Shown here: in pieces, positions 1 to 7,633 of the stretch | Layout: each line of letters starts with the position of its first letter | Position numbering within the stretch: position 1 is the first letter of the stretch | DNA from: Planctomycetaceae bacterium TMED10 | GTDB lineage: Bacteria; Planctomycetota; Planctomycetia; Pirellulales; UBA7805 | DNA: 7,928 nt | Reading direction: 5' to 3' | Assembly: GCA_002168195.1 (NCBI GenBank) | Contig: NHBP01000114.1 | Span: 1 to 7,928 of the forward strand | Translations under genes and position numbers: made by a program | The notes under the pieces: generated by a model | The model's database searches: none | The model's input: only the letters and a program-made list of their open reading frames with translations | What the model was told of the DNA's origin: nothing

Positions 1-1119
1 GATCTTTTCCCCTTGCGCGCCTTGCCAGTTGAGTTCTCCCATCCACCAAAAGGTTACATAGCCCTGTTTGTCGATCAAATACACGGTCGGCCACATCGTA
101 TTGCCCCAGGCCTTCCAGTTGCGGAGTTGATTATCGAGCAGCACTGGAAAGTCGAAACCGGCTTCTTGCATCTTTTGCCGCACGTTGGCGACATTGTGCT
201 CCGGTGCGGTCTCCGGAGTGTGGATGCCGATCATGACCATGCCCCGATCTTTAAAATCTTTTTGCCAGCCCCTGTACCAGGGGTAATTGCGGATGCAGTT
301 GATTCATCCGTAGGTCATGAAGTGCAGCACGATCACCTTGCCGTGGAGGTCTTGCATCGTGAGAGCGGGCGTGTTGAGCCAACCGTGTGCGGAGTGGAGT
401 CGGGGCGCCCTGAACTTGATGTCGCCCAGATTTGCGGTGTTGAAAGATTCACCTGCCAGGCTGTTCCATTTTTGCTGCTGCGATTCTTCCAGGATGGCAG
501 CAATATTTTGATCGGCTTGTTTCTCGATCGCCTGAAGTTCCGCCTGGAGGCGATTCCCCGGTTCACCCTTCGATTTCTTTGCTTGCCGTTCGCTGCGACT
601 TTTTTTTGCCGTCTCGATCACCTTGGCAATCTGTTGCAGTTGCGCATCGGTCAGTTGCAACGCATGGTGAATATCGGCTGTAAGCAGGGATTCGATTCCC
701 TGGACGCGGATGACGATCTGATTCAATCGCTGCTGCTGCTCGGGGCTGAGGATCTTATTTACTTCGGGTCGCGTCTCAGAGATTAGTCGTGCGAGTGCCG
801 CCGCATTTTCGGCAGGCTCGAGCGGTCGTATCTTCCAGAGTCGGCTGTCCACCGCGTCGGTCAGTTGACGCACCGCGTGGGTCTGCTTGTCGGTAAGGCA
901 AAGCGATTGCTGCACGAACGGATCGCGGATGAGCACCAAGTAGGGATTGGTGACAACCGACAGACTCGTAGCAGAGGCTTTTTTTTCACTCGCGTCTGGC
1001 CGATTCGCCGACTCTTCAGCGGTTGCCGCACCGCACCGCAGTAAACTGCCCGTGGTTGCAAGCAGCACGACGGCAACGAGCGGCAGCAGAAGCCGCGAAA
1101 ACCAGGAGACCGGTATCAT
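1..1119 (-). CDS. Predicted selenoprotein: exported TlpA/redoxin-like thioredoxin-fold protein with a UxxC active site (C-terminus beyond window)
   Basis: This probably acts as an extracytoplasmic thiol-disulfide (selenol) oxidoreductase. Residues 1-35 form a signal peptide, with a hydrophobic core from L10 to L27 and a likely cut after ATA. Residues 58-225 are helical, charged and Gln-rich, with LTxxQ-like motifs (LTDKQ at 75, LSPEQ at 124, LTDAQ at 156) resembling Spy/CpxP-type repeats. A redoxin domain begins near 236; its strand VIVLHFMTYG ends at G271. The next codon is TGA (304-306), then INCIRNYPWY. Related TlpA/DipZ-type proteins carry CINCxR here, so the TGA replaces the first active-site Cys (U272, with C275). 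The frame stays open to base 1, giving 101 more codons with typical fold features (MVMIGIHTPE, FPVLLDN, a probable cis-Pro WPT at 343-345, VYLIDKQGYV). Length seen is 373 residues, incomplete. The ATG at 1119 has only a weak, distant AGGA. A nonsense mutation or sequencing error is the alternative, but the exact Cys position and the hairpin that follows argue for selenocysteine. Family is confident; Sec decoding is strong inference. Confidence 0.85.
269..283 (-). promoter_or_regulatory. SECIS-like hairpin just downstream of the UGA
   Basis: In the minus-strand RNA, CCCCUG (283-278) pairs perfectly with CAGGGG (274-269) around the loop GUA (277-275). If the closing pairs open, the loop reads UGGUACA, which carries a GGU like the apical loop of the E. 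coli fdhF SECIS. The loop starts 26 nt after the UGA, inside the roughly 16-37 nt spacing known for bacterial SECIS elements. The hairpin lies within the codons for YPWYRG, where the Arg is encoded by AGG, which completes the stem. A 6-bp GC-rich stem can occur by chance, so position is the main support. Confidence 0.7.
304..306 (-). other. In-frame UGA predicted to encode selenocysteine (U272)
   Basis: The TGA follows HFMTYG and precedes INCIRNYP in one continuous frame. It occupies the first cysteine position of a CxxC redox motif, the commonest site for Sec in thioredoxin-fold selenoproteins. No other stop interrupts this frame between 1119 and 1. Confidence 0.82.
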
Positions 1120-1320: not shown

Positions 1321-1367
1321 CTCTGACGTATCATCTAAATTTCATCGTATCTTTGAGCGGGGCAAGC

Positions 1368-1751
1368 ATGGCGGAACAAAAAAATGTGCTGGGAGGTCCA
1401 TTGCAAGTCTGCTGCACTTCTCCCATGGCAGGATATTATCGGGACGGTAGTTGCAGAGTCGCGGCCGGAATGGAAGCGAGAAATACCCTTTGCGCGGAGG
1501 TAACCGAAGATTTCCTGGAGTTTACTCGCCTACGCGGCAACGATCTGCTAACCCCGAATGCGGAGTTGGATTTTCCCGGACTCAAGCCGGGCGATCGGTA
1601 TTGTCTGTGTCCACGCAATTGGAACGAGGCATTCAAAGCAGGTGTGGCACCACCGGTTGTCCTCGAGGCTACGCATCTGGATACCTTGGAGTCGATTGAC
1701 CTCGATGATCTACAGGCGCACGCGATCGACGGTAAAGCAAATATCCAATAG
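1368..1751 (+). CDS. DUF2237 family protein (COG3651-like)
   Basis: A 127-residue protein matching the widespread DUF2237 family, whose biochemical role is not known. Family hallmarks are NVLGGPL at 6-12, the Cys pair C15-C16, GYYRDGSC at 22-29, RGNDL at 56-60, FPGLKPGDRYCLC at 69-81, W85, and APPVVLEATH at 94-103. It has six cysteines (15, 16, 29, 42, 79, 81); the CC and CLC pairs suggest metal binding or disulfides, but that is inference. There is no signal peptide or membrane segment, so it is probably cytoplasmic. An upstream in-frame TTG at 1353 would add five residues; the ATG at 1368 is preferred because members of the family begin a few residues before NVLG. The last 83 bases overlap, antisense, the C-terminal tail of the PEP-CTERM gene. 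It is divergent from the selenoprotein gene. Confidence 0.9.
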   Translation: MAEQKNVLGGPLQVCCTSPMAGYYRDGSCRVAAGMEARNTLCAEVTEDFLEFTRLRGNDLLTPNAELDFPGLKPGDRYCLCPRNWNEAFKAGVAPPVVLEATHLDTLESIDLDDLQAHAIDGKANIQ

Positions 1752-2430
1752 GGATGGTCGATTCATACGAACGCCGTCTGCTTCTACGCATCCAGCCGAA
1801 AAGAAAACCGACTGTCGCAAGCAGTAAAGTCGATGGTTCGGGGGACGGGTTCGGTGATAGGTCCAGTGTGCCACTCCAAGAGATTGCTCGGCCAGTCTGG
1901 GTCATTGAAAAGCGGAGACTGGCAGGGTCCCCGCCGGCCGGCGTATGATTCGCATAGGCGATTGCTCCGGAAACCGAGCTATTGTCGAAAAGCCCTAAGA
2001 CATGGACGTCAACGAAATAGTCACTGCGGGATATCATCTGGCTGGAATTTGCGGTGAATATCCCGTAATCCGCGGATCCGAATACGAGTGTAGAGAGATT
2101 GTTCAGATCAAGCTCCCAGACGGGCAAACTGATAGAAGAAAAAAAAGGGACCGCTGCGAAGTCACCTGTGCCGGGGTTGGCGAACAAATGGTGGATATTG
2201 AACTCGTCGGTGTTCGAAAGTGTAATGCCCGGATCAACGAACAGGCCAGCCGAGCCGAGCGGATCGGAGCCGTAAAAAGAATCCGCTCTCGCAACAGTCA
2301 CCTCACCAGCGAGTAGCACAGCAATGAGTGTGATGAGCTGCGCGATGCGTACACATCTTCCCCCGTGCGTTTGAGGGCCGAGCCGTTTCGGGAGTTTGCG
2401 AGTCGCTGTCTCGACTGTCGCGGTTTGCAT
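1669..2430 (-). CDS. PEP-CTERM sorting-domain protein with an atypical C-terminal extension
   Basis: An exported protein of the PEP-CTERM/exosortase system, in which the C-terminal signal is recognised and processed by an exosortase and the protein is moved to the cell surface. From the ATG at 2430 it has 253 residues: a basic N-terminal stretch, a hydrophobic segment IAQLITLIAVLLAG ending near VARADS (signal peptide), and a middle region rich in Ser, Asn, Gly and aromatic residues that looks like a beta-sandwich of unknown function. The sorting domain is at about 197-220: PEPST, a hydrophobic helix (LLLATVGFLFGW), then MRRSRRR. Normally such proteins end within a few residues of the Arg cluster; this one continues for 33 residues, all but a few codons of them antisense to the DUF2237 gene. 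The start is uncertain: a GTG at 2505 would lengthen it to 278 residues, and ATG 2475 is also possible. AAGGCGG lies directly before ATG 2430. Sorting call is strong; function of the mature part is unknown. Confidence 0.8.
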   Translation of the reverse strand: MQTATVETATRKLPKRLGPQTHGGRCVRIAQLITLIAVLLAGEVTVARADSFYGSDPLGSAGLFVDPGITLSNTDEFNIHHLFANPGTGDFAAVPFFSSISLPVWELDLNNLSTLVFGSADYGIFTANSSQMISRSDYFVDVHVLGLFDNSSVSGAIAYANHTPAGGDPASLRFSMTQTGRAISWSGTLDLSPNPSPEPSTLLLATVGFLFGWMRRSRRRSYESTIPIGYLLYRRSRAPVDHRGQSTPRYPDA

Positions 2431-2618
2431 CCGCCTTGATCGCAAAACGATTTTTGCGCAACCCCATGGATGCATCTTACTGAGTGTTTTGAAAAGCGAT
2501 TTCACTAGCGAATCCAGATGAGCTTTAGCAGGGGAGAGGTGGGCTTGGTGAGAGAGGTTCTCTGGCGTGACTTGCCTGTCCGAAGCTCACTCTAGCCACA
2601 AATTGTACAACTGTTGGC

Positions 2619-6586: not shown

Positions 6587-7633
6587 TCACAGAATCAGCA
6601 TCGCATCGCCATAGCTGTAAAAGCGATATTCTTCCTCGACTGCCAACTCGTACGCGCGGCGGATCAGCCTATCGCCCCCGAATGTGCGGACCAGGACCAA
6701 TAGCGTGGTGCGAGGCAGGTGGAAGTTGGTCAGCAGCGCATCGACCCCCTGAAACGTGTAGGGCGGGTGAATGAATAAATCGGTCGGGCCCTCAAACGCA
6801 CCGAGCGTGCCGCCGTGTGCCGCCGTCTCAATCACCCGCATCGAGGTGGTGCCGACCGCGACGACCCGGTGCCCTTCATTGCGGACCCGCGTGAGTGCTG
6901 AGGCTGTGGCCGGTGAAAGCTGAGCCCATTCGCTGTGCATCGGGTGTTCACTCAAAGAGTCGCTGGCGATCGGCCGGAACGTTCCGGTGCCGACATGCAG
7001 GGTGACCTCTTGTCTTTGAATCTTTGCGGCCGATAGCTGTTCGAGGAGTGCATCGGTAAAGTGCAATCCGGCCGTAGGGGCCGCGACCGAACCGGGATGT
7101 CGTGCATACACGGTCTGGTAGCGGCTTTCATCTTCAGGCAGCATTTCCCCACCCCGAATATAGGGCGGCAGCGGTGTACGGCCGACTTGCTCGAGCAACT
7201 GATAGGGTTCTTGTTCGCTGTCGGTGTGCACGATCCAGCTACTGTCGTCCTCCTGAGCGATAAGCGTGAGCGTGGTGGCCGGTCGCCCTTCGCGATCGAT
7301 CAGTTGCACACTCTCACCGGCCCCAATTTTTCCGCGCGTGCGGCCGAGTACCTTCCACAAACCGCCTGCATCGGATTCAAGGAACAAACCCTCCCAGCGT
7401 CCGCCGGTGGCAGTTCGCTTGCCGACCAATCGGGCGGCTACGACACGCGTATCGTTGAGTACCAGAGAGTCACCCGCAGCAAGCAACTGCGGAAGATCGC
7501 GAACATAGCGATGCTCGATCGAATCACTTTTGCGATCGACGACCATTAACCGGGCATCCGAGCGGTGGGCGAGCGGCTGCTGGGCAATCCGCTCTTTCGG
7601 GAGTGTGTAATCGTAGGCGTTCAGTTCGCTCAT
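6587..7633 (-). CDS. queA: S-adenosylmethionine:tRNA ribosyltransferase-isomerase (QueA)
   Basis: This enzyme transfers and isomerises the ribosyl group of S-adenosylmethionine onto 7-aminomethyl-7-deazaguanine at the wobble position of tRNAs with GUN anticodons, forming epoxyqueuosine, the penultimate step of queuosine synthesis. At 348 residues it has the normal family length. Signature segments are AYDYTLPKERIAQQP at 6-20, LVLNDTRVVAARL at 57-69, GRTPLPPYI at 151-159, GSVAAPTAGLHFT at 181-193, HVGTGTFRP at 213-221, NFHLPRTTLLVLV at 303-315 and YGDAMLIL at the end. The start is the ATG at 7633, because MSELNAYDYTLP is where the family begins; an upstream in-frame ATG at 7678 would add 15 unconserved residues. 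No strong ribosome site is visible. It is the first gene of the leftward set with the Nudix and desulfurase genes. Identification is secure. Confidence 0.96.
   Translation of the reverse strand: MSELNAYDYTLPKERIAQQPLAHRSDARLMVVDRKSDSIEHRYVRDLPQLLAAGDSLVLNDTRVVAARLVGKRTATGGRWEGLFLESDAGGLWKVLGRTRGKIGAGESVQLIDREGRPATTLTLIAQEDDSSWIVHTDSEQEPYQLLEQVGRTPLPPYIRGGEMLPEDESRYQTVYARHPGSVAAPTAGLHFTDALLEQLSAAKIQRQEVTLHVGTGTFRPIASDSLSEHPMHSEWAQLSPATASALTRVRNEGHRVVAVGTTSMRVIETAAHGGTLGAFEGPTDLFIHPPYTFQGVDALLTNFHLPRTTLLVLVRTFGGDRLIRRAYELAVEEEYRFYSYGDAMLIL

Follow-up and report, generated by a model that had tools for sequence, protein, structure and literature searches.

The window analysed here, a stretch of 7,928 nucleotides from the Planctomycetaceae bacterium TMED10 assembly (G000:C50:1-7928), opens with a predicted selenoprotein gene on the minus strand (1..1119). 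Read from 1119 to 1, its frame holds 373 codons, and the only stop among them is a TGA at codon 272 (304..306), at the first Cys position of what would be a CINC motif. The gene runs past the end of the window, which contains 373 of its 390 codons, and its 3′ end lies on a second contig of the same assembly (C13, L011:1935-1988). This contig overlaps the window contig by 1934 bases at 99.74% identity (5 mismatches, no gap). It, too, carries the TGA, and with the 17 codons and the TAA that it adds, the gene is complete at 390 codons. The original prediction had described a frame with a single TGA, flanked by HFMTYG and INCIRNYPWY and followed by a Trp-Pro; translation and the overlapping contig confirm the frame, and both sequence features are present as described (LHFMTYG-U-INCIRNYPWY, with W343-P344 further on). 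Its count of 101 codons after the TGA is correct up to the end of the contig, but the gene has 118 sense codons after the TGA. The two contigs may not be independent witnesses of the TGA.

Divergent from the predicted selenoprotein gene, and having the upstream region in common with it, is a DUF2237 gene (1353..1751, plus strand), beyond which lies the gene of a PEP-CTERM-motif protein (1669..2505, minus strand). On the other side, contig C13 continues (L011:1988-7947) with Pfam matches to an M28 peptidase, an FG-GAP protein, a sulfotransferase and a molybdopterin-binding piece, and with an open reading frame that by eye looks like formylmethanofuran dehydrogenase subunit B and had no Pfam match. 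Further into the window, queA (6587..7630) is 84% identical to its copy in the congener G004 and 55-66% identical to those of the other eight relatives with queA among the 12 searched, values that appear consistent with the window contig belonging to the same genus.

The read-through protein begins with a likely signal peptide (1021..1119, minus strand; hydrophobic helix at residues 11-26), recognised from the sequence and from a low-confidence part of the structural model, and on the look of this N-terminus the protein is likely exported. It is followed by an all-helical, LTXXQ-like domain (residues 52-236; 412..966, minus strand), which is complete before the UGA, and by a DipZ-like thioredoxin/redoxin domain (residues 236-373; 1..414, minus strand). 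The latter gave a profile match to the C-terminal domain of DipZ (PDB 2hyx, E 1.6e-42), and the model agrees with that structure at 38% identity and an rmsd of 1.1 over 137 residues. A test for the thioredoxin fold found it present, with a CxxC-type pair formed by U272 and C275, and the Trp343-Pro344 step (88..93, minus strand) is the putative cis-Pro of the fold. The peroxiredoxin motif PxxxTxxC/U is absent, Leu265 standing at the Pro position and T or A at the Thr position among homologues. The domain resembles the thioredoxin domains of DipZ (2hyx, 5cyy), SOQ1 (7djj/7djk) and NHLRC2 (6gc1), and differs from these proteins in having a predicted Sec for the first Cys, a helical domain in front and a model that ends with the thioredoxin domain. 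DipZ itself carries a CINC motif. The profile match and the structural comparison thus support the thioredoxin fold and the kinship with DipZ that had been proposed; of the two types named there, TlpA and DipZ, the former fits less well than the DipZ/SOQ1/NHLRC2 type.

The part in front of the thioredoxin domain had been described as an LTxxQ-rich helical region. It is indeed helical, and the LTXXQ assignment is weakly supported: the Pfam match passes by its summed score and falls below the cut-off in the homologue P0122, and Foldseek with the helical domain returned nothing at E ≤ 0.001. In a second structural look, STV, Spy and CnrX, which we take to be one superfamily, occupied ranks 1-4. 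Together, the Pfam match and these ranks make the domain weakly similar to the Spy/CpxP/CnrX (LTXXQ) group of periplasmic proteins. There is no Cys among its conserved columns. A search of NCBIfam 20.0 gave no model over the cut-off for the read-through form, a single-domain form or one truncated form.

The homologue alignment, made from the best 120 of 588 database matches, places the UGA on a catalytic Cys. Cys occupies both the 272 and the 275 positions in 119 of these 120 homologues, and the remaining one (P0002, 90% identical to our protein, from a cluster of 26 sequences) ends exactly at the TGA position; in every other row that is not truncated (119 of 119), the UGA is thus matched by the first Cys of CINC. 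Cys275, the second residue of the UxxC pair (295..297, minus strand), is invariant in all 120 non-truncated rows, the query included, and so is Trp343-Pro344 (120/120). Our main reading, to which we would give a probability of about 0.92, is that the UGA is decoded as Sec272; the product would then be a DipZ-like selenol thioredoxin, likely exported, that acts as a reductant on extracytoplasmic disulfides or other oxidised sulfur groups. The same decoding had been put forward originally, and it is supported by the alignment with Cys homologues, by the recurrence of the UGA at 23 other loci, by the presence of selB, tRNA-Sec and selD, and by a hairpin with a covarying pair.

Using the degenerate pattern U-I-N-C-x-x-N-[FLYHQ]-P-x-Y, which variants with other residues escape, we found 30 stretches in the genome contigs of GTDB, 21 of which (from 20 genomes) are read-through redoxins homologous to the query; the other nine had no phmmer match to it and were dropped. 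The records are labelled Planctomycetota or one of its groups (17), Actinomycetota (2) and Armatimonadota (2, one MAG), and one locus sits in a record titled as a complete genome (CP036526). When 396 genomes of the order were searched, 115 gave matches at E ≤ 1e-30, and in six of them (G000, G012, G387, G283, G235 and G207) a TGA fell inside the match, at the same codon in every case. Among them G012, from another family of the order, is 38% identical to our protein, and only G283 adds a locus not yet counted. Including our own, there are 24 loci with a TGA at this codon, the 23 others being the 21 pattern loci, G012 and G283 (L131, L135 and L146 were equated with L066, L063 and L079, respectively, on contig or genome size and an identical reading). 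In viral contigs the UINC pattern had no match. Identity to our protein after the UGA is 47-63%, arguing for conservation of the read-through part in relatives; before the UGA, two-domain forms whose N-terminal part is full reach 29-37%, and single-domain forms 43-60% over the 25-37 residues immediately before the UGA, so the higher identity after the UGA partly reflects a contrast of domains. In eight of the 24 loci (L052, L053, L057, L060, L064, L067, L073 and L078) only 78-149 codons are open before the UGA, indicating that single-domain forms use the UGA too.

The consequences of this UGA can be seen in protein databases. A profile of the pre-UGA part matched 41 proteins, 30 of which end at the U site; where named, all 30 are called ‘hypothetical protein’, and their TGA stop is presumed from the position. 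Conversely, a single-domain U-form query matched 450 proteins; of the 120 listed ones, 30 are fragments, 107-116 residues long, whose sequence starts just after U (28 by a stricter test). Judging from these entries, gene calling splits the family in two, and catalogues would mostly hold its cut-short halves. The same data bear on the possibility that the TGA is a nonsense mutation or a sequencing error, i.e. that the gene is a pseudogene or contains a wrong base. Such an explanation could appeal to a metagenome assembly with 7% contamination and to the congeners, four of five having no homologue at E ≤ 0.001 and the fifth a distant one only. However, the TGA recurs at the same codon in the overlapping contig (perhaps not an independent one) and in the 23 other loci, CP036526 among them, the 47-63% identity persists beyond it, and 30 database proteins, P0002 among them, have their last residue at this very position. 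We regard this explanation as already largely refuted and give it very little chance.

It is similarly improbable that the code has changed and UGA stands for an ordinary residue such as Trp, or is generally read through as a stop. In favour of this, six of the 120 listed proteins (of 450) from the single-domain search have W at the U position, which probably stems from gene callers using code 4. Against it, queA in the same window terminates in TGA, and because of this neighbour UGA can be taken as an ordinary stop elsewhere in the genome; Trp occurs in none of the 119 full-length rows from the two-domain search (best 120 of 588), Trp would abolish the CxxC pair, and the genes for Sec and a tRNA-Sec are present. 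Of the sel genes whose presence had been proposed as a check, selB, selC and selD were all found in the genome, and selA was not. The selB match scores 361 bits (cut-off 242) and the tRNA-Sec, with anticodon UCA, 68.6 bits (cut-off 47). The cut-off for tRNA-Sec is not strict, since two more loci of our genome barely exceed it (50.9 and 47.2 bits), as do five of 14 control genomes. The selD gene (348 bits; L021:1246-2541, plus strand, contig C26) itself contains an in-frame TGA (ASCAGUAGK), so that selenophosphate synthetase would likely be a selenoprotein as well. As for selA, it was not found in our assembly (97% complete, 7% contaminated) and is present in four of five congeners at E < 1e-137; an assembly gap is the likely reason.

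The Sec machinery also accompanies the U forms elsewhere. selB is over the cut-off in 20 of 22 U-form genomes, of the other two G123 having it in pieces and G133 not at all, and selA is found in 21 of 23, each time at E about 1e-80 or better, our own genome and G133 being the two without it. For comparison, among 117 relatives (our own included) selB exceeds its cut-off in 39 and selA reaches E 1e-80 in 39, with 75 passing the low cut-off of selA. Cys-form relatives (match at E ≤ 1e-30) have selB over the cut-off in five of 26, a difference from the U forms with p 5e-7 that serves as a guide only, as the two sets were not drawn alike.

Downstream of the UGA lies a predicted bacterial SECIS hairpin, CCCCUGGUACAGGGG (269..283, minus strand), whose loop begins 26 nt after the UGA. 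The limits for bSECIS elements given in PMC13188914 are a loop of 3-9 nt with G in its first two positions, a stem of 4-16 bp, a loop 16-37 nt after the UGA and an MFE of -7.5 or below. The search for a bacterial SECIS element that had been suggested thus ended in a hairpin within published limits, with a GUA loop at +26, a 6-bp stem and a folding energy of -12.0 kcal/mol over the 53 nt that start at the UGA. Folded alone, it is not more stable than dinucleotide shuffles (z -0.57), and an Rfam search of the window returned nothing at E ≤ 1. The same hairpin, CCCYUGGUACARGGG or a near variant with its GUA loop at +26, occurs in 18 of 19 planctomycete loci examined, the exception being L055. We aligned 18 of the 24 U loci, all sharing this hairpin; the alignment omits L055 and four Actinomycetota/Armatimonadota rows, which have other hairpins, and L132, which was found later and by eye has the same one. 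Columns 27/35 form a U-A pair in 10 rows and a C-G pair in eight, with no mismatch, and both sides change at columns 24/38 as well (3 rows). The covariation score, the number of cells paired and the number of cells changed on both sides were each reached by 0 of 500 shuffles; the other two of the five measures, pairs changed on both sides (238/500) and further pair types (499/500), were not above shuffles. Four of the seven pairs never vary, the outermost fails in six rows, and the switch between U-A and C-G also swaps Lys for Arg in the protein. In at least two clades of the tree U-A and C-G rows are intermixed (L058/L135 beside L081/L065; L060/L064 beside L078/L053), which makes it likely that the pair changed more than once. 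As a SECIS candidate based on comparison, the hairpin offers a switch of two bases that can be put to the test.

In Cys homologues the hairpin is largely missing. Of the 26 Cys-form loci L023-L049, 24 were aligned (L037 and L047 were left out); over these, the columns in question are paired in 34.5% of cells, a value not above that of shuffles, and the inner stem is absent from 23 of the 24. The best stem in the allowed range has on average 6.4 pairs in 23 U forms and 4.6 in 24 Cys forms (p 5e-7), and folding relative to simple shuffles is stronger in U forms (mean z -1.6 vs -0.6). The U rows labelled Actinomycetota/Armatimonadota (L052, L057, L067 and L073) share an unrelated hairpin, CUGCCGAGUUACGGCAG, with its loop at +24; in L057 the lowest-energy fold over 53 nt differs from it. 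The Singulisphaera-labelled U form (L055:4988-5050) has neither hairpin and shows a longer stem by free folding only, an analysis that left out L063, whose site is too close to the end of its locus. The one Cys form with an inner stem, L023 (1741-1803, minus strand), comes from a genome with no selB over the cut-off (G098) and keeps five inner pairs of a SECIS-like hairpin, a possible relic of a return from Sec to Cys.

With Sec272 in place, the protein could work as follows. SelB with Sec-tRNA would bind the hairpin and insert Sec272, and the N-terminal signal would direct the protein to export. Sec272 would then attack the oxidised substrate, with Cys275 resolving the selenenyl-sulfide, and electrons would come from a membrane reductase of the CcdA/DsbD type, as is known for this fold. 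The helical N-terminal domain may act as a Spy/CpxP-like client-binding part. Since an MsrB domain is fused to Cys homologues and MsrB lies near the U-form genes of L052 and L132, methionine sulfoxide repair is weakly suggested as one candidate use of the enzyme: the domain is annotated in six of the best 120 (of 588) homologues (P0024, P0039, P0044, P0087, P0088 and P0100; checked in one of them, P0024), and tblastn over all fetched loci placed MsrB near the U-form gene in those two loci only. One may also ask whether both products matter, much of the translation stopping at 271 to yield a free Spy-like helical protein and Sec read-through being a selenium-regulated minority. Sec insertion in bacteria is often inefficient and the helical domain is finished before the UGA, which speaks for this, but the truncated form would carry a stranded start of the thioredoxin domain (residues 236-271), and in the single-domain forms with the same UGA truncation would leave a stub only; we consider such a division of labour unlikely.

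Cys-form redoxins and redoxin-MsrB fusions belong to the same family as our protein, with CINC for UINC and Cys for Sec, and the inner stem of the hairpin is missing from 23 of 24. In a tree of 120 rows, 23 of them U forms, the U and Cys labels need 12 changes, and strongly supported branches force at least four; its bootstrap is not fully settled, L071 was left out, L135 stands for L063, and every second listed database protein was used. The exchange of Cys and Sec in the family thus appears to be a repeated one. The original claim that the UGA sits at the catalytic Cys is confirmed and at the same time refined: in this large family Sec and Cys were exchanged several times, and the UGA here is not an isolated case. 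More tentatively, at somewhat under even odds, we suggest that these are widespread, uncatalogued exported selenoproteins in which Spy/CpxP-like client-binding helices and a selenol thioredoxin would together form a combined periplasmic holdase and selenium-dependent repair reductase; on this view the family would have switched many times between Sec and Cys, and different phyla would have come to place unrelated SECIS hairpins, two or more of them, at one position. With the enzyme present in related bacteria in both a Sec and a Cys version, the family lends itself to asking which advantage selenium brings beyond the cytoplasm.

Redoxins with a UxxC motif are already familiar as predicted selenoproteins. 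A 2026 review (PMC13188914) names two such groups, ‘Redoxin family protein, UxxC’ on the one hand and ‘Prx-like thiol:disulfide oxidoreductase, UxxC’ on the other; entries of the former are PF08534 with HEU0032618.1 (Table 1 of PMC13188914) and MBA3499694.1 (PMC9312934). By these descriptions our protein is like the former in being a predicted UxxC selenoprotein of the redoxin clan, and it may belong to the same family as HEU0032618.1. With the latter (PF00578, UxxC/UxxU) it shares a PF00578 domain and the UxxC, and it differs in its helical partner, none being named in the passages on that family searched in PMC13188914. Prx-like and thiol-disulfide isomerase-like UxxC families also appear in the GOS survey (PMC2398784) and the Sargasso survey (PMC1088965). 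GOS ‘Prx-like 3’, likewise predicted to be UxxC and of the redoxin clan, is perhaps related going by its description; its fusion partner has three conserved Cys according to PMC2398784, unlike the helical domain here, which is without a conserved Cys. Selenoproteins are reported from two planctomycetes in PMC4807772, whose table S9 is a list of such planctomycete proteins. The family is not described in the main-text portions of the literature searched, and the terms searched for are absent from PMC5029168 and PMC12013277. Our loci would thus add likely selenoproteins to a phylum for which the literature, as far as it was searched, describes few.

Several other observations were made along the way. 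Clustering by blastp of 183 crude open reading frames from 24 sources showed that the top neighbour families of U-form genes occur in four loci each, the commonest being, by eye, DUF1501-like and sulfatase-like. Among single-domain homologues, P0169 and P0171 have Ser at the active-site Cys/Sec position (SxxC). UAG as a Sec codon was rejected: the matches with TAG in G187 and G313 encode Cys at the active site, and their TAG lies further upstream; these Cys forms (L134/L148 and L147, respectively) are likely broken genes or errors. The inner TGAs in the matches of G009 and G012:C46 are ordinary frame ends and not Sec codons, and the one in the G030 match belongs to a different redoxin. This redoxin (L150, G030:C78:200-2200, local 550-891, plus strand) carries a ResA-like motif, DFWAHW-U-GAC, in which TGA takes the place of the first Cys codon, and, selA and selB both being over the cut-off in G030, is a second candidate selenoprotein.
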